The position numbers and the translations under genes were made by a program. A stretch of DNA of 64,000 nt, taken from contig NC_015391.1 in NCBI RefSeq assembly GCF_000195575.1, positions 346,501-410,500 on the forward strand. Reading direction: 5' to 3'. A model generated the notes under the pieces. That model saw only the letters and a list, made by a program, of their open reading frames with translations, was not told where the DNA came from and did not search any database. Below are positions 7,591 through 39,629 of the stretch, in pieces; the stretch's first letter is position 1, and each line of letters opens with the position of its first letter. This stretch comes from Carnobacterium sp. 17-4. Lineage in GTDB: Bacteria; Bacillota; Bacilli; Lactobacillales; Carnobacteriaceae.

Positions 7591-9489
7591 ATGAGAAAAC
7601 TAAAAGGAAAACAAATGAGTTCGTCTACGTACCGCTATCCAACTGTTTTTAAAGAGTGTTTGAATACGGTCTTACTAGGTTTGATTGCTTCATTTATAGG
7701 AAATTTCTTATTGCAATTTTTTCAAAATCAATACAGTTTTTCTTTAGCCGTAAAATTTGCCTTTCAATGGCATACAGAGATGTTTTTAATAGGGGTATTT
7801 TTGCTGTTTACTATCTACTTATGGATAACAGCCATAGGTGGTTCGCGTTGGTTGAGTACCCTTACTCTGACAGTTGCGGTAGTCGCAACAGGTATAACGA
7901 CACAACAAAAAATGGCTTTACGTGGCGAGCCTTTGTATCCATCTGACTTGACCATGATTCAAGAGTTGCCTTTTTTGATCCAAATGATCGATAGCAAGCT
8001 GCTTTTAGTCATCAGTATTTTTCTAATCAGTGCCATCATACTAAGCATATCTATTTTTATTAAGCATAAAAAGAGGTCAAAAACCTTTATTGATTCTAAA
8101 CAAAAAAAATGGAATTGGTTTGTACGAGGCGTCACATTCATTGTGACAAGCGCTATTCTTTTTTATAGTCTAGGGTTTAATCAGCCGAGTAATTTGGTGA
8201 AAGCTGCTTATGACCGACATGCTTACTGGATTCCTTACAGTCAGCAAATGAATTATTACAACAATGGTTTCATAGGTGGATTTTTATATAACCTGGGTGT
8301 AGAAGCTATGACCAAACCAACAGGGTATTCAGAAGAACAAATAATAAAAATTGTTCAAGAATATGAAGAAAAAGCAGTTAAAGTAAATCAGACAAGATTA
8401 GCATCACTAAAAGACGTAAATATTATTTATGTCATGAATGAAAGTTTTTCAGATCCCACAGCTCTTGAAGGAGTTACCGTTTCAAAAGACCCGATTCCGA
8501 AGCTACGAGCATTAAAGGACACTTCCTTAAGTGGAACGATGTTATCTCAAGGTTATGGAGGTGGAACAGCTAATATCGAATTCGAAGCCTTAACGGGCTT
8601 GTCAATGGAGCCGATGACTGCTAGTTTAACAACTCCTTATACGCAATTGGTTTCTAGGATGAACGAGTTGCCATCAGTTGTTTCTTATCTGAATCAGCAG
8701 GGTCATGCCACAACGGCTATTCATCCGTATGATACAACGATGTATAAACGAAATGAAGTTTACCAAAAATTAGGGTTTAAAACGTTTTTGACGGAAACAA
8801 CTATGGAGTTTGTGGGTAAAAAAGATCGGAATCCGTATATTTCAGATGAATCCGCTTATCAAGAAGTCTTGCAACAAATGAAAACAACACAAGAGCCTGA
8901 TTTTATCCATCTGGTTACGATGCAGAACCATATGGTTTACAGCGGTAAATACCCTAATACAAACTATTCTGCTCAAGGGACAGGAAATGCTAGAGAAGCA
9001 GCCAATTACCTACAAGATCTAGCATATAGTGATGATGCATTAAATGAATTTTTAGAAACAATAGGTCAATCAACTGAAAAAACGATCGTTGTTTTTTGGG
9101 GAGACCACCTGCCAAGTTTTTATAATGAGACTGTAGTCGAAACGAATGGACGTTTAAAAATGCACCAAACGCCATTGCTCATCTATTCTAATTTTGCTGA
9201 AAACTACGATACAATGGGAACCATTAGTCCTATTTATTACATGAATCATATTTTAGACATTGCAAATGCTCAAGTTACTCCTTACCATGCTTTTTTAATG
9301 GAGTTGGAAGAGGCCTTGCCTGCTTTTGAAAAAGGGACATACCTTGAACGTGATTCAACAGTTGTAGCTGCAAAACGAGGAGACCTTTCAAAAAACACAC
9401 AAGAGTTGTTAAAGATATACGATATGATTCAATACGATGTTACGGTAGGTGAAAATTATAGTAAAGCACATGATTTTTTTGAAGATTAA
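7591..9489 (+). CDS. LTA synthase-like membrane phosphotransferase (sulfatase fold)
   Basis: 632 residues from ATG 7591 (GAAGGTG just upstream; a GTG at 7576 is less likely). Five hydrophobic segments in the first 200 residues are followed by a large extracellular sulfatase-type domain, the architecture of LtaS and MdoB-like enzymes that move glycerol phosphate between lipids and polymers. The domain starts at NIIYVMNESFSDP; the probable catalytic threonine is T326 in GGGTANIEFEALTG, and VVFWGDHLPSFY carries later metal ligands. The loop around the threonine differs from that of classical LtaS, so it may modify another glycerol-phosphate polymer or a glycolipid. It probably shares a transcript with the glycosyltransferase upstream. 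Fold is sure, substrate is not. Confidence 0.85.
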   Translation: MRKLKGKQMSSSTYRYPTVFKECLNTVLLGLIASFIGNFLLQFFQNQYSFSLAVKFAFQWHTEMFLIGVFLLFTIYLWITAIGGSRWLSTLTLTVAVVATGITTQQKMALRGEPLYPSDLTMIQELPFLIQMIDSKLLLVISIFLISAIILSISIFIKHKKRSKTFIDSKQKKWNWFVRGVTFIVTSAILFYSLGFNQPSNLVKAAYDRHAYWIPYSQQMNYYNNGFIGGFLYNLGVEAMTKPTGYSEEQIIKIVQEYEEKAVKVNQTRLASLKDVNIIYVMNESFSDPTALEGVTVSKDPIPKLRALKDTSLSGTMLSQGYGGGTANIEFEALTGLSMEPMTASLTTPYTQLVSRMNELPSVVSYLNQQGHATTAIHPYDTTMYKRNEVYQKLGFKTFLTETTMEFVGKKDRNPYISDESAYQEVLQQMKTTQEPDFIHLVTMQNHMVYSGKYPNTNYSAQGTGNAREAANYLQDLAYSDDALNEFLETIGQSTEKTIVVFWGDHLPSFYNETVVETNGRLKMHQTPLLIYSNFAENYDTMGTISPIYYMNHILDIANAQVTPYHAFLMELEEALPAFEKGTYLERDSTVVAAKRGDLSKNTQELLKIYDMIQYDVTVGENYSKAHDFFED

Positions 9490-27839: not shown

Positions 27840-28565
27840 ATGAAAAAAGTATTAATTGTCGATGATGAACAATCTATTTTAACATTGTTAGCTTTTAATC
27901 TAGAAAAAGAAGGTTATCAAGTAGATACAGCTTTGGATGGTTTAGAGGGATATGAAATGGCCGTTGCTCATCCTTATGATTTTATTATTTTAGATTTAAT
28001 GCTTCCATCAATGGGTGGGATGGACATTTGTAAAAAATTGCGACAAGAAAAGATTGAAGCACCAATAATGATGTTAACAGCTAAAGATGATGAACTTGAA
28101 AAAATTATCGGTCTTGAATTAGGTGCGGATGATTATATGACTAAACCATTCAGTCCTCGTGAAGTGCTTGCGAGAATGAAAGCAATCATGAGACGGATGA
28201 GCAGTAAAAGTAAGGCAGAAGAAGCTTTAAAAGAGTCGAATAGTACAGCAGAACAGGATGAATTAATTAAAGTAGGAGATATTCAAATAGACCCTAGCCA
28301 GTATGAAGTAATTGTAAGAGGAAAAAAAATAGATGTTACTCCAAAAGAATTCGAATTACTGATGTATATGATCAAACGAATCAATCGTATTCTAAGCAGA
28401 GAACAATTGCTGGATGCAATATGGAACTTTGATTATGCAGGTGAAACCAGAATTGTTGATGTACACATTAGTCACTTAAGAGAAAAAATAGAAGTAGACA
28501 CAAAGAATCCTACTTATATTCGAACAGTAAGAGGTTTTGGCTATAAATTTGAGGCTCCTAAATAA
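27840..28565 (+). CDS. phoP: OmpR-type response regulator, PhoP-like
   Basis: 241 residues. Receiver domain with the acidic pair D8/D9, phosphoacceptor D52 (FIILDLMLPS) and the conserved lysine in TKPF; C-terminal winged helix (PKEFELLMYMI, then VDVHISHLREKI and TVRGFGYKF). It overlaps the kinase gene by one base and sits just upstream of two phosphate-transport operons that carry PhoP-box-like repeats, so it most likely activates them when phosphate is short. Confidence 0.92.
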   Translation: MKKVLIVDDEQSILTLLAFNLEKEGYQVDTALDGLEGYEMAVAHPYDFIILDLMLPSMGGMDICKKLRQEKIEAPIMMLTAKDDELEKIIGLELGADDYMTKPFSPREVLARMKAIMRRMSSKSKAEEALKESNSTAEQDELIKVGDIQIDPSQYEVIVRGKKIDVTPKEFELLMYMIKRINRILSREQLLDAIWNFDYAGETRIVDVHISHLREKIEVDTKNPTYIRTVRGFGYKFEAPK

Positions 28566-30340
28566 TGAGGAAACTTCAATTTCGAATCCTAGCTATTTTT
28601 ATTGCGATATTCACTATTTTTAGTTTGTCAATCGGTCTTTACTCGATTAATTTACTACAAGATTATGCTAGTAATAGTCAAGAAGAGGAGTTGATCAAGC
28701 AGGCTAAAACAATAGCAAGCTTACTTCCTATGAATGTTGATGATCCGACAAACTTGGAAGCTGCAACAAATGAGGCAACAGCTCTTGAGATGCAATCAGA
28801 TGAAAGATTAACGATCATTGATCTTTCTGGTGTTGTCGTTTTTGATACAGCAACAAATGAAGAAACATTGGAAAACCATAGCAATCGTGAAGAATTTCAA
28901 GCGGTATTAGCTGGAAATGAAGTAGGTGTTTCAGCCAGGAATAGCGAAAGTACAAATGAAACGCTGTATTACGTTGCAGTTCCTTTGCTGGGAGAGCAAA
29001 ATGAATTAGCAGGTGTCTTGCGATTATCTAGACCAGTAGCTGAAATCAATCAAATTAGTGAACAAATAAAAACCTCTCTATTACTGTTTAGTTTATTAGC
29101 TCTTATTTTAACTACATTAATCACACTAATTATAACAAAACGCATTGCAAAACCGATCAATGATATTATGACCGTTGCTAAAAGTCTTTCTGATAAACAG
29201 TATGAGGTTAGGTATAAAGGGAATGCATATGGTGAGGTGGCAGATTTAGGGCAAACGATAAATGAACTAGCAACAAGTTTAGAAGAACAAACGCAAGAAA
29301 TCGAACAAAATGACAAACGGCTTTATGAATTGATCAATCATTTGGTTATTGGTGTGATGCTGATAGATGAACATCGAACTATAAAAATGGTGAATCCTGC
29401 AATGAGTGTTATTCTAGGGGAAGATGTCACCAAACTTGTTGGAAATTCTTACGTCGAAGCAACAAAGAGCTATGGATTAAGCCACTTGATTGAAATAGCT
29501 TACCAAAAAAATGAAAAACAAAATGATGAAATTTATTTTTATTATCCCAAAGATAAAATTGTTGATGCGAATATTGTTCCAATTGACGGGAAAGAACCAG
29601 GAGAGCAGAACTTAATTGTCTTGTTGTATGACATTACAGAAATTAGAAGGCTTGAAAAAGTACGGACAGATTTTGTAACCAATGCTTCACACGAATTAAA
29701 GACACCTGTTACAGCTCTTAAAGGTTTCTCAGAGACATTGTTGGATGGAGCAATGGAAGACAAAGAAGTACTGAAACAATTTTTAGAAATTATGTTGGCT
29801 GAAAGCAGTCGCTTAGATTTTTTAGTGAATGATATTCTAGAGTTGTCGAAACTGGAACAAAAACAAGTGCCTATGAACATGCAAGAAGTCAATCTTACCG
29901 AAGCAGTATTATCTACCTTTCAACTCGTGAAACAAACAGCAGATGAAAAAGAGATGAAACTGAACTTAATTGAAGAAGATACTTTGTTTATTACAGTGGA
30001 CAGCAGTCGATTAAAACAAATATTGGCTAATCTCATTAATAATGCAGTTGTCTATACTCAAGATAGCGGAGAAGTAACGGTTACTATAAGAAAAGAAAAT
30101 AATCAAGCTGTTATCTTGGTTTCAGATAATGGAATTGGAATACCTGAAGATGAACAAGATCGGATCTTTGAACGGTTTTATCGAGTTGATAAAGCCCGTA
30201 GTCGTAATTCTGGCGGAACGGGATTGGGATTATCTATAGTGAAGTATTTAGTGGAAAACTTGAATGGATCGATTGCCGTTGAAAGTAAACTTGGGTTAGG
30301 AACAACTTTCATTGTAAGACTGCCTATACAACCAAAATAA
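28565..30340 (+). CDS. phoR: Sensor histidine kinase, PhoR-like
   Basis: 591 residues. Two membrane segments (about residues 8-30 and 170-195) enclose an extracellular sensor domain; then HAMP, a PAS domain, a HisKA dimerisation domain with phosphoacceptor H376 (NASHELKTPVTALKGF) and a HATPase domain with N, G1 (VSDNGIGIP) and G2 (GGTGLGLSIVK) boxes. It is the partner of the PhoP-like regulator with which it overlaps. PhoU proteins encoded downstream commonly relay the transport state to this type of kinase. A strong terminator follows. Confidence 0.92.
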   Translation: MRKLQFRILAIFIAIFTIFSLSIGLYSINLLQDYASNSQEEELIKQAKTIASLLPMNVDDPTNLEAATNEATALEMQSDERLTIIDLSGVVVFDTATNEETLENHSNREEFQAVLAGNEVGVSARNSESTNETLYYVAVPLLGEQNELAGVLRLSRPVAEINQISEQIKTSLLLFSLLALILTTLITLIITKRIAKPINDIMTVAKSLSDKQYEVRYKGNAYGEVADLGQTINELATSLEEQTQEIEQNDKRLYELINHLVIGVMLIDEHRTIKMVNPAMSVILGEDVTKLVGNSYVEATKSYGLSHLIEIAYQKNEKQNDEIYFYYPKDKIVDANIVPIDGKEPGEQNLIVLLYDITEIRRLEKVRTDFVTNASHELKTPVTALKGFSETLLDGAMEDKEVLKQFLEIMLAESSRLDFLVNDILELSKLEQKQVPMNMQEVNLTEAVLSTFQLVKQTADEKEMKLNLIEEDTLFITVDSSRLKQILANLINNAVVYTQDSGEVTVTIRKENNQAVILVSDNGIGIPEDEQDRIFERFYRVDKARSRNSGGTGLGLSIVKYLVENLNGSIAVESKLGLGTTFIVRLPIQPK

Positions 30341-30638: not shown

Positions 30639-31541
30639 ATGACTATTACAAAACTATCAAAATTAACTTTAACTTTAGGCTTAGGCTTAACATTAGCAGC
30701 TTGTGGAGCAGAATCAGATTCTGCAGGTTCATCAGAAAACACGGAAGAATTTGACACAACGCAAACAATCAATGTTATTTCACGTGAAGATGGTTCTGGT
30801 ACTCGTGGAGCATTTACTGAAATCACAGGCGTACTAGTTGAAGATGGCGATACTGAAACAGATAACACGTATTCTGGAGCGACTATTCAAAATAGTACTA
30901 GTGGTGTTATGACAACAGTAGCTGGAGACCCAGCATCAATCGGGTACATCTCTTTAGGTTCATTAGATGACAGTATTAAAGGTGTGAACATTGAAGGCGT
31001 AGAAGCAACTCCTGAAACCGTACAAGATGGTTCATATGCTATTTCTCGTCCATTCAATATTGCTTACAATGGAGAACTAAGTGAAGTTGCTCAAGATTTC
31101 TGGACATACATTATGAGTGCTGAAGGACAAGAAGTTGTTGTAAACGAAGGATACGTTGAAGCGGTAACAGATGCACCTGCATATGAAGCAGCTGAAGACA
31201 TGACTGGAAATATCAGTATTGTTGGTTCAACTTCAGTAACACCAGTAATGGAAGTTCTAGTTGAAGAATATACAGCTCTTAACCCAGAAGTTACAATCGA
31301 TGTTACATCAAACGGTTCTTCTGCTGGTATGACTGCTGCAATGGACGGATCGGCTGATATTGGAATGGCTTCTCGTGAATTAAAAGATGAAGAATTAGAA
31401 GTGTTAACAGCTGAACCACTGGCTATTGATGGTATCGCTGTAATTGTTAATAATGAAAACTCTGTTGAAGATTTAACAATGGAACAAGTAAGACAAATCT
31501 TTACAGGTGAAGTAACAACTTGGGATGAAGTTGCTAAATAA
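30639..31541 (+). CDS. pstS: Phosphate-binding lipoprotein PstS, circularly permuted form
   Basis: 300 residues from ATG 30639, with AGGA eight bases before; GTG 30606 and ATG 30630 are less well placed. A lipoprotein signal ends at LAAC. The mature protein begins with what is normally the second half of PstS (INVISREDGSGTRGAF, then IGYISLGSLDDS and SRPFNIAYNGE), followed by what is normally the first half (ISIVGSTSVTPVMEVL, TSNGSSAGMTAAMDG, IGMASRELKDEE, and IFTGEVTTWDEV at the very end). All phosphate-contacting loops (GSTSVTP, GSGTR) are present, so it should bind phosphate and deliver it to PstC1A1B1. The order is the reverse of PstS2 in this window. Confidence 0.88.
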   Translation: MTITKLSKLTLTLGLGLTLAACGAESDSAGSSENTEEFDTTQTINVISREDGSGTRGAFTEITGVLVEDGDTETDNTYSGATIQNSTSGVMTTVAGDPASIGYISLGSLDDSIKGVNIEGVEATPETVQDGSYAISRPFNIAYNGELSEVAQDFWTYIMSAEGQEVVVNEGYVEAVTDAPAYEAAEDMTGNISIVGSTSVTPVMEVLVEEYTALNPEVTIDVTSNGSSAGMTAAMDGSADIGMASRELKDEELEVLTAEPLAIDGIAVIVNNENSVEDLTMEQVRQIFTGEVTTWDEVAK

Positions 31542-35111: not shown

Positions 35112-35150
35112 TTTACACAAAATTTACAATTACGCTATTTAATTTTTACA
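35112..35150 (+). promoter_or_regulatory. PhoP-box-like repeats upstream of pstS2
   Basis: TTTACA at 35112, 35123 and 35145, with a degenerate CTATTT at the 35134 position: exact 11-base steps, the PhoP-box pattern. It lies 57 nt before the pstS2 start, so the second pst operon should answer to the same regulator. Confidence 0.7.
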
Positions 35151-35206
35151 ATAGTACGTTATTATTAGGAAGTATGTAATTTAGGTAAATGCCTAGGAGG
35201 TATAAT

Positions 35207-36070
35207 ATGAAATTAATAAATAGTCGATTTCTGTTGATCATTGCATTTGGATTTATTCTAACAGCATGTGGACCTGTAGTAGAAGAAGAATCGATTACTG
35301 CAGTTGGGTCATCTGCTTTGCAGCCACTTGTAGAAGCTGCTGGTGAACAATTCAGTTCTGAAAATGTTGGGAAATTTATTAATGTACAAGGCGGAGGTAG
35401 TGGAACTGGGTTAAGTCAAATTGCTGCTGATGCAGTAGAAATTGGGAATTCAGATATTTTTGCTGAAGAAAAAGAGGGCATTGATGCCTCTAAATTGGTT
35501 GATCATCGTGTGGCTGTTGTCGGAATCACACCAATTGTGACACCCGGAACTGGAGTTACTGATATTAGTATACAAGAACTGCAAGACATCTTTACTGGTA
35601 AAATTACTAACTGGTCAGAATTAGGCGGGAAGGATTTACCAATAACGGTTTTAAATCGTGCAGCTGGTAGCGGAACACGTGCTACATTTGAACAATGGGT
35701 CTTAGAAGAAGGTCAAAACAGTATTATTACACAAGAGCAAGAATCAAGTGGAACAGTACGTCAAATTGTTGCTAGTACGCCTGGAACAATCAGTTATGTA
35801 GCTTTCTCATATGTAAATGAAGATGTGGTCGCTTTATCAATAGATGGGGTAGAACCAACAGATGAAAATGTAAAAACAAATGAATGGCCGATTTGGTCTT
35901 ATGAACACATGTATACGAATGGAGAACCAACTGGTTTAACAAAAGAATTTCTAGATTACATTTTATCGGACGAAATTCAAGCTACACTGATTGGAGCTTT
36001 AGGCTATATTCCAACTAGTGAAATGGAAGTTGAACGAGATGTTGAAGGAAATACAGTACCTATAGAATAG
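35207..36070 (+). CDS. pstS: Phosphate-binding lipoprotein PstS (copy 2, standard order)
   Basis: 287 residues from ATG 35207, with a perfect AGGAGG eight bases before. Lipobox LTAC near residue 21. The mature domain runs in the standard order: ITAVGSSALQPLVE, VQGGGSGTGLSQI, IGNSDIFAEE, IFTGKITNWSELGG, then VLNRAAGSGTRATFE and ISYVAFSY. It resembles streptococcal PstS closely from memory. It starts the second pst operon, which has its own PhoP-box-like repeats. A long hairpin separates it from pstC2. Confidence 0.95.
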   Translation: MKLINSRFLLIIAFGFILTACGPVVEEESITAVGSSALQPLVEAAGEQFSSENVGKFINVQGGGSGTGLSQIAADAVEIGNSDIFAEEKEGIDASKLVDHRVAVVGITPIVTPGTGVTDISIQELQDIFTGKITNWSELGGKDLPITVLNRAAGSGTRATFEQWVLEEGQNSIITQEQESSGTVRQIVASTPGTISYVAFSYVNEDVVALSIDGVEPTDENVKTNEWPIWSYEHMYTNGEPTGLTKEFLDYILSDEIQATLIGALGYIPTSEMEVERDVEGNTVPIE

Positions 36071-38046: not shown

Positions 38047-38853
38047 ATGCCCAATCAAGCTAACTTAGAGACAAATGTTTTAAAAATGGCCCCCGGTGCG
38101 AAGATTGATTTGTCTACCGAAGATTTACATGTATGGTATGGAGATAATGAAGCAATCAAAGGTGTTTCGTTAGAATTTGAAGAAAATAAAATCACCTCTC
38201 TTATCGGACCAAGTGGATGTGGAAAATCAACTTACTTGCGTTCTTTAAACCGGATGAATGATGAAATCGAATCTGCTAGAGTAACAGGAAAAATCATGTA
38301 CGAAGGCATTGATGTAAATGCTTCAAATATCGATGTATATGAAATGCGTAAAAATATTGGAATGGTATTTCAACGTCCTAACCCATTTAGTAAATCGATT
38401 TATGACAATATTGCCTTTGCTTTAAGACGACATGGAGTCAAAGATAAAAATACGTTAGATGAAGCAGTGGAAACCAGTTTAAAACAAGCCGCTTTATGGG
38501 ATCAAGTGAAAGATCAATTAAATAAAAGTGCCTTGGCCTTATCTGGAGGACAACAACAACGTTTATGTATCGCAAGAGCAATTGCTCTTAAACCAAATAT
38601 TTTATTATTAGATGAACCAGCAAGTGCATTGGATCCAATTTCTACTAGTCAAGTAGAAGAAACACTACTGCAATTGAAAGAAGATTATTCAATTATTATC
38701 GTTACTCACAATATGCAGCAAGCTTCAAGAATCAGTGATTATACAGCTTTCTTTTATGTTGGAAACGTGATTGAGTACGATGAAACGAGAAAAGTTTTTA
38801 CTCGTCCAAAAATTCAAGCAACAGAAGATTATGTATCTGGTCATTTTGGGTAG
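38047..38853 (+). CDS. pstB: Phosphate ABC transporter ATPase PstB (copy 2)
   Basis: 268 residues with an N-terminal extension of about 25 residues before the ABC domain. Walker [11 protein letters not shown], signature [14 protein letters not shown], Walker [14 protein letters not shown] (Ala where the other copies have Thr). It is immediately followed by a third PstB, the tandem arrangement known from streptococci and lactobacilli, where the two may form a heterodimer or alternative homodimers. Confidence 0.94.
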
Positions 38854-38864
38854 GAGGAAAAAGA

Positions 38865-39629
38865 GTGAGTAATGAAAAATTTATTATTGAATCTAAAGAT
38901 GTTCATTTATACTATGGAAATAACGAGGCGCTAAAGGGCGTTTCCTTAGACTTTAAGCCACGAGAAATTACTGCCTTAATTGGTCCAAGTGGTTGTGGGA
39001 AATCTACTTTTCTAAGAACCTTAAATCGGATGAATGATTTAATTCCGAATGTGACGATCACAGGTAATGTAACATTTGAAAATAAACAGATTTACAGTCC
39101 TAAAATGGATACTGTCGAACTAAGAAAAAAAGTAGGAATGGTATTTCAACAACCGAATCCTTTTCCTTTTTCAATCTATGAAAATGTTGCTTACGGTTTG
39201 AAAATCGCAGGGATGAAAGACAAAGCTAAGATAGATGCTATTGTAGAAGAAAGCCTGAAAAAAGCAGCAGTTTGGGAAGACGTTAAAGATAAATTGCATA
39301 AAAGTGCTCTTTCACTTTCAGGTGGACAACAGCAACGGGTTTGTATTGCACGAGTATTAGCAATTGAACCATCTGTGATTCTATTGGATGAGCCGACAAG
39401 TGCTCTAGATCCTATCTCAAGCGCAAAAATTGAAAACATGCTATTAGAACTAAAAAAAGATTATACCATGATAATTGTTACCCATAACATGCAACAAGCA
39501 TCAAGAATATCTGATAATACAGCATTTTTCTTAAATGGACACTTGATTGAGCATGGGGAAACAAGACAAATTTTTACAAGTCCTAAAGAAAAAGAAACAG
39601 AAGACTATATTTCTGGACGTTTTGGGTAA
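38865..39629 (+). CDS. pstB: Phosphate ABC transporter ATPase PstB (copy 3)
   Basis: 254 residues. Walker [11 protein letters not shown], signature [15 protein letters not shown], Walker [14 protein letters not shown]. By eye it is closer to PstB1 than to PstB2 ([16 protein letters not shown] and the ISGRFG end are shared). It begins 11 nt after pstB2; the start is a GTG at 38865 preceded by AGGAGG. Confidence 0.94.

Follow-up and report, generated by a model that had tools for sequence, protein, structure and literature searches.

The first of two phosphate-binding protein genes in a stretch of the Carnobacterium sp. 17-4 chromosome raises the question of whether its product, PstS1, is a circular permutant of the PstS family and, if so, where the chain was cut and what became of phosphate binding. 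The stretch analyzed, hereafter the window, comprises 64,000 nucleotides (positions 346,501 to 410,500 of NC_015391.1). Taken together, our analyses make it very probable that the pstS1 product is a functional phosphate-binding lipoprotein and a naturally occurring circular permutant of PstS, likely of single origin through duplication and spread with pstCAB. The features on which the argument turns are the following, in window coordinates.

27840..30340, + strand: phoP and phoR two-component genes directly upstream of pstS1, in the same order as pneumococcal pnpRS-pst1 (PMC4913102, PMC6722419)
30639..31541, + strand: pstS1, gene for the permuted phosphate-binding lipoprotein (300 aa and stop codon)
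30639..30704, + strand: signal peptide and lipobox LAAC of PstS1, read from the sequence, with probable lipidation of Cys22
30762..31160, + strand: C-D half of PstS1, residues 42-174, by alignment to 4q8r residues 120-243
31044..31067, + strand: predicted lobe 2 to lobe 1 crossover strand, residues 136-143 (SRPFNIAY), model strand 97-104 (model numbering + 39)
31161..31199, + strand: new joint of old C-terminus to old N-terminus, residues 175-187 (13 residues)
31200..31535, + strand: A-B half of PstS1, residues 188-299, by alignment to 4q8r residues 3-113
31407..31448, + strand: predicted long hinge strand, residues 257-270, model strand 218-231, with the hinge defined as in PMC12421899 and PMC5439949
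31724..34907, + strand: pstC1 (likely start ATG 31781), pstA1, pstB and phoU, by TIGR02138 and TIGR00974; cognate transporter of the permuted PstS
35189..36070, + strand: pstS2, ordinary block order, the built-in control

PstS1 is thus encoded together with pstC, pstA, pstB and phoU, as befits a member of the family. Downstream of pstS2 lie pstC2, pstA2, two pstB genes and a second phoU; the two pstB genes of this second pst operon adjoin each other (38047-39629), and two adjacent pstB genes are also reported for Enterococcus faecalis (PMC12096839). A perfect Pho-box-like repeat, TTTACACAAAATTTACA, is found upstream of pstS2 at 35112-35128, and upstream of pstS1 there is only a weaker version, TTTACACAAAGTTAATA.

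The halves of PstS1 are exchanged along the chain

The pstS1 open reading frame runs from an ATG at 30639, with AAGGATGG on its 5' side, to a stop codon at 31539-31541. Behind the signal peptide comes the C-D half, which forms the C-terminal half of an ordinary PstS and carries, in order, the motifs SREDGSGTR, IGYISLGSL, SRPFNIAY and SAEGQEVV; to it belong most of lobe 2, the second crossover and those helices of lobe 1 with which a canonical PstS ends. The joint that follows is of typical length for the group (median 13 aa, range 11-78, across 79 permuted proteins) and leads into the A-B half, N-terminal in an ordinary PstS, with the motifs IVGSTSVTP, TSNGSSAG, IGMASRELKDEE and IFTGEVTTWDEV; this half supplies the bulk of lobe 1 and, beyond a crossover, the strand and helix with which lobe 2 begins.

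The initial annotation had proposed, from the conserved blocks, that PstS1 is a circular permutant with the order C-D-A-B instead of A-B-C-D, and rotated alignments, profile matches and the predicted fold all bear this out. Swapping the halves of PstS1 raised its local alignment scores against nine canonical PstS proteins from 146-315 to 257-572 (1.4- to 1.9-fold; shuffled sequences reached at most 61-79). Among all possible rotations, the highest-scoring one began at residues 170-191 with each of the nine. In phmmer searches, canonical PstS proteins in the PDB matched PstS1 in two stretches of reversed order, whereas 4h1x matched residues 41-298 in a single colinear stretch (E=3e-84). The family profile TIGR02136 likewise matched in two stretches (E=2.4e-58), with profile positions 30-156 falling at PstS1 residues 180-299 and the remainder of the profile coming first; because the match is split by the swap, its score of 197.7 bits lies below the curated cut-off of 206.6. 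PF12849 also matched in two stretches, at 121.6 bits and above its cut-off. Homology to TIGR02136 and PF12849 therefore extends over both halves, but not in the ordinary profile order, which makes PstS1 a permuted variant of the PstS family rather than an ordinary member. With its C-D-A-B order and a cut between a lobe 2 helix and the SRExGSGT strand, PstS1 fits the 4h1x-type group, and PstS2, put forward as a normal-order control, does have the ordinary order of blocks.

Predicted fold and position of the cut

An AlphaFold2 model of PstS1 residues 40-300, built on eight permuted sequences, reached a pLDDT of 93 and a pTM of 0.84; the matches of an earlier model, made with the signal peptide and 7 sequences (pLDDT 63), were excluded from the fold evidence. 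Structure prediction had been suggested as a check on the permutation, and the model does fold as a two-lobed PstS, with both lobes and all phosphate loops intact as anticipated. Foldseek superimposed the model on 4h1x over its full length, with 257 residues aligned at a TM of 0.96 and an rmsd of 1.1 A, and VIA-align gave a Z of 37.4 over 257 residues. With canonical PstS structures, on the other hand, the sequential VIA-align alignment covered one half only: in 1twy, 4gd5 and 4q8r it was the C-terminal half that paired with model residues 1-136 or 1-137 (Z 12.2 for 1twy and 11.1 for 4q8r), and in 9l8j it was residues 2-118 that paired with model residues 147-261 (Z 8.5). Unrelated type II proteins such as OpuAC aligned sequentially along nearly the whole model (Z 9.4-10.2, 207-216 residues). 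This sequential alignment is as expected if the permuted chain keeps the type II topology, as the model suggests, the modest Z values being support for that reading and not proof of it.

The position of the cut differs from that first proposed. The last aligned residue of PstS1, 298, pairs with 4q8r residue 113, and residue 44 pairs with 4q8r residue 120; PstS1 R49 pairs with 4q8r R125. The equivalent of 4q8r R125 in SAR11 PstS is P169, in a protein with its hinge at 102-117 and its second domain at 112-278 (PMC12421899), and in Xanthomonas PhoX the ligand arginine is R159, with a hinge strand at 93-108 and domain II at 101-251 (PMC5439949). We read PhoX R159 as the probable equivalent of PstS1 R49 from the R..GT motif that they share. 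Because these published limits of lobe 2 enclose the aligned cut, the cut is placed inside that lobe, and in the model 30 residues follow the long hinge strand 257-270 before the C-terminus is reached. The cut is ~30-45 residues past the hinge strand: the first crossover strand leads into a helix, and the loop behind this helix, still within lobe 2, holds the new ends. The claim of the initial annotation that the termini sit at the inter-domain hinge is therefore not upheld, either by alignment to published domain limits or by the model, and we reject a hinge location, since the predicted strand ends 30 residues before the C-terminus. Its companion claim, that the lipid anchor is attached to the other lobe, is correct: the N-terminus is now on lobe 2, where we place the tether by the lobe limits given in the literature rather than by measured distances. 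The moved anchor may in turn change how PstS1 docks on PstC1A1, as the initial annotation suggested.

The consequences for chain topology can be set out as follows. A canonical type II chain begins with the lobe 1 core, goes on to a strand and helix of lobe 2 and the core of that lobe, and ends with a strand and helix of lobe 1; a cut just before the lobe 2 core would make the chain begin with this core, go on to the strand and helix of lobe 1 and the core of lobe 1, and end with the strand and helix of lobe 2. The permuted PstS would thus have the same type II pattern with its pseudo-symmetric lobes exchanged, and this preserved pattern may explain why the swap is inconspicuous in structure classification. 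On this reading lobe 1 is continuous after the swap and, because the cut falls within it, lobe 2 is now the discontinuous lobe, bearing both ends and the exit of the lipid tether. More tentatively, and with less than even confidence, the cut may exploit the pseudo-twofold symmetry itself, the new N-terminus being the symmetry mate of the old one, so that the permutation is silent in topology but flips the tethered lobe and, with it, the permease subunit on the side of the tether. If this were true, permuted PstS would need its own PstC/PstA clade, and other binding-protein families may hide silent permutations.

Phosphate binding and membrane anchoring

Among the permuted proteins, the residues equivalent to PstS1 S197, S227, S245, R49, S53 and G54 are invariant, and T55 is conserved in 77 of 78. 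The GSTS, GSSAG, ASR and R..GSGT positions, mapped to ligand contacts through PMC12421899 and PMC5439949, are near-invariant in 78 permuted proteins, these being counts for the permuted side only, as the canonical C-D columns are partly gapped by truncated matches. The permuted protein is also the sole PstS detected in 23 genomes of families f4, f6 and f18 when two PstS families are searched. For the pneumococcal counterpart, genetic data are available: SP_2084 is the PstS of Pst1, which PnpRS activates (PMC6722419), the induction of pst1 at 10 uM phosphate is about 210-fold, deleting pst1 cuts the low-phosphate uptake rate about two-fold, and encapsulated cells need pst1 or pst2 (PMC4913102). 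Given the near-invariant contacts, the genomes with a permuted PstS only, and the pneumococcal genetics, phosphate uptake is the best-supported role, and it is the role that PstS1 would be expected to play in Carnobacterium sp. 17-4. As no phosphate loop is lost, PstS1 should bind its ligand and close as an ordinary PstS does, and it would hand phosphate on to its own transporter, PstC1A1B, with PhoPR probably in control.

A lipobox was recognized by a simple pattern in 66 of the 79 permuted proteins, and the spacer between the cysteine and the domain has a median of 20 residues (quartiles 15-23) versus 15 (7.5-20.5) in canonical proteins. The other 13 comprise four that appear to have a transmembrane-like N-terminus as their anchor (L099, L116, L117 and L121), and others that appear to have a signal peptide but no lipobox; in L101, L122, L123, L095 and L109, which also have no lipobox, there are acidic low-complexity joint linkers of 64-78 residues or acidic C-terminal tails. 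With 13 of 79 proteins lacking a lipobox, lipid anchoring on lobe 2 is frequent without being required, and an adaptive account based on anchoring loses weight.

Distribution of the permuted form

In the order to which the window belongs, about 71 of 295 genomes carry the permuted form by match-table count, in families f1, f3, f4 and f6. One further carrier was found in the class, and across the phylum (398 genomes) 13 carriers from ten families lie outside the order; those named include Desemzia, Marinilactibacillus, and MAGs labelled Oscillospiraceae and Anaerolineaceae. The loci fetched yielded 79 distinct C-D-A-B proteins, 49 A-B-C-D proteins and two tandem fusions, numbers that reflect what was fetched and not natural frequencies. 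These proteins and the crystal structure 4h1x bear out the suggestion in the initial annotation that the same order exists in databases.

Several of these loci show arrangements of their own. L007, a contig from an Anaerolineaceae-labelled MAG (Chloroflexota), carries a permuted pstSCAB-phoU operon followed by a two-component system, which may reflect lateral transfer or a binning error. A contig classed as viral in IMG/VR has a permuted pstS at its edge (L154:2971-3885), next to a large ORF resembling a conjugation-type ATPase; this stretch may be part of a mobile element or of a host flank. In another genome (G224), two permuted paralogues surround a helicase-like gene (L100:4017-4925 and 8562-9476), with no pstCAB beside them in the fetched stretch. 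In L096, L101, L112, L121, L122 and L123, the permuted pstS stands after phoU instead of at the operon front, giving pstC-pstA-pstB-phoU-pstS within the fetched stretch, in the group without a lipobox.

Origin of the permutation

Trees were built with FastTree and 60 bootstraps after the halves had been put back in ordinary order, and the long-branch L089 was left out. A clade of permuted PstS was present in all three main trees, with monophyly in 58/60 bootstraps for the concatenation, 54/60 for the C-D half and 27/60 for the A-B half. The transporter partners divide in the same way: PstC proteins accompanying permuted and canonical PstS split cleanly (0/110 misplaced), as do PstA proteins (0/37 misplaced). 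PstS1 of the window falls in the permuted clade and its partners in the matching PstC/PstA clade (4h1x is absent from these trees), and in our sample permuted PstS and the distinct PstC/PstA clade always travel together. The simplest reading is a single permutation event, inherited and moved together with the operon. The permuted form most likely arose once; we infer that the gene was duplicated in tandem, that the copies fused and that the outer halves were lost, after which permuted pstS would have spread with its pstCAB partners.

Two single ORFs in pst operons (L083:4850-6430 and L084:3632-5224, both on the - strand) encode two fused PstS copies in the order A-B-C-D-A-B-C-D. They come from two species of one genus (G823 and G864), and each is a single lipoprotein whose copies are ~75% identical, with a repeat unit of 735 nt. 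Such a tandem fusion is the classic intermediate of permutation by duplication and shows that the first step happens, which does not make it the ancestor of the permuted clade. We rejected the G823/G864 fusion as a direct ancestor, as it clusters with a canonical PstS and joins the permuted clade in only 1/60 bootstraps (with three genomes sampled from that order), and no direct fused intermediate of the permuted clade was found among the fetched loci. The occurrence of canonical, permuted and separate fused-tandem forms in one gene family opens the duplication route to study.

Alternative explanations

A trivial source of the unusual order would be an assembly or sequencing rearrangement at 30.7-31.5 kb, but four further genomes of the genus share the order, with 86-96% identity, and it is also present in the 79 distinct proteins and the crystal structure; with independent assemblies in agreement, such an error is ruled out for practical purposes and its probability is negligible. 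It might also be argued that pseudo-symmetry has been misread and that each half is really the other lobe, diverged, a view with which the sequential alignment of the permuted chain to ordinary type II proteins would agree. However, each half pairs with one particular canonical half, with an identity of about 40% where the match is closest, and hhalign of the A-B against the C-D half profiles detected no similarity, that is, no internal homology between PstS halves. The assignment of the halves is therefore unambiguous, and a misreading is hardly credible.

Several independent permutations at a favoured site are improbable, although the site corresponds, by pseudo-symmetry, to the normal N-terminus, PstS has undergone an independent tandem fusion in a related genus, and the A-B half taken alone backs monophyly weakly. 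Against repeated origin stand the single cut site (C-terminal ends within 5 residues of one common point in 76 of 79 permuted proteins), the monophyly of the concatenation and the exact match of the PstC/PstA clades. That the permuted protein has left uptake to become a sensor, or to bind another ligand, is very improbable; in its favour, the genome also has an ordinary PstS2 with its own operon, but the near-invariant binding residues, the 23 genomes in which no other PstS was detected and the contribution of the orthologous pneumococcal operon to low-phosphate uptake (PMC4913102) argue otherwise. Selection for moving the membrane anchor to the other lobe would be compatible with a single-origin, phosphate-binding permutant, and the shift of the tether to lobe 2, the prevalence of the lipobox and the longer median spacer fit such selection; yet the spacer ranges overlap broadly, 13 proteins have no lipobox and neutral fixation fits the data equally well, so that this explanation is tenable but unlikely.

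Comparison with known systems

The swapped order is not new to databases because 4h1x dates from 2012, and a natural permutation in a core nutrient-uptake protein of many Bacillota, including a human pathogen, provides a clean system for asking whether the choice of tethered lobe matters. Since the split matches fall below the TIGR02136 cut-off, permuted PstS can be under-annotated, or mis-aligned in phylogenies. In the literature on PstS, 4H1X and SP_2084 within reach, which excludes subscription papers and permutation databases, no paper describing the permutation was found; the string 'permut' is absent from PMC4913102, and PMC2861598 makes no mention of a similar swap in Lactococcus OpuAC.

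The closest known system is SP_2084 of Streptococcus pneumoniae Pst1 (PDB 4h1x, titled PstS 2 in its entry), which has the block order, cut and fold of PstS1 (TM 0.96, 53% identity) and the same place behind a two-component system and before pstC-pstA-pstB-phoU; the two differ by sequence divergence only. Canonical PstS proteins, such as Clostridium perfringens PBP-1 (4q8r), pneumococcal 4exl and PstS2 of the window, share with PstS1 the lobes, phosphate loops, operon and lipoprotein type, but their halves are in the opposite order and their N-terminus is on lobe 1, whereas that of PstS1 is on lobe 2. The tandem-fused proteins also belong to a pst operon, and their middle C-D-A-B portion is colinear with the permuted protein, but they contain two full copies and group with a canonical PstS. 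Treponema pallidum MglB-2 (Tp0684; PMC4990184) is likewise a naturally permuted ABC binding lipoprotein with Gram-positive relatives, for which adaptation through anchoring has been proposed (PMC4990184). It represents an unrelated event, however; MglB-2 has a type I fold and a sugar ligand, and its N-lobe cut adds a fourth crossover, whereas the PstS cut keeps the type II pattern. Permutation of a binding protein as such has a precedent in MglB-2.
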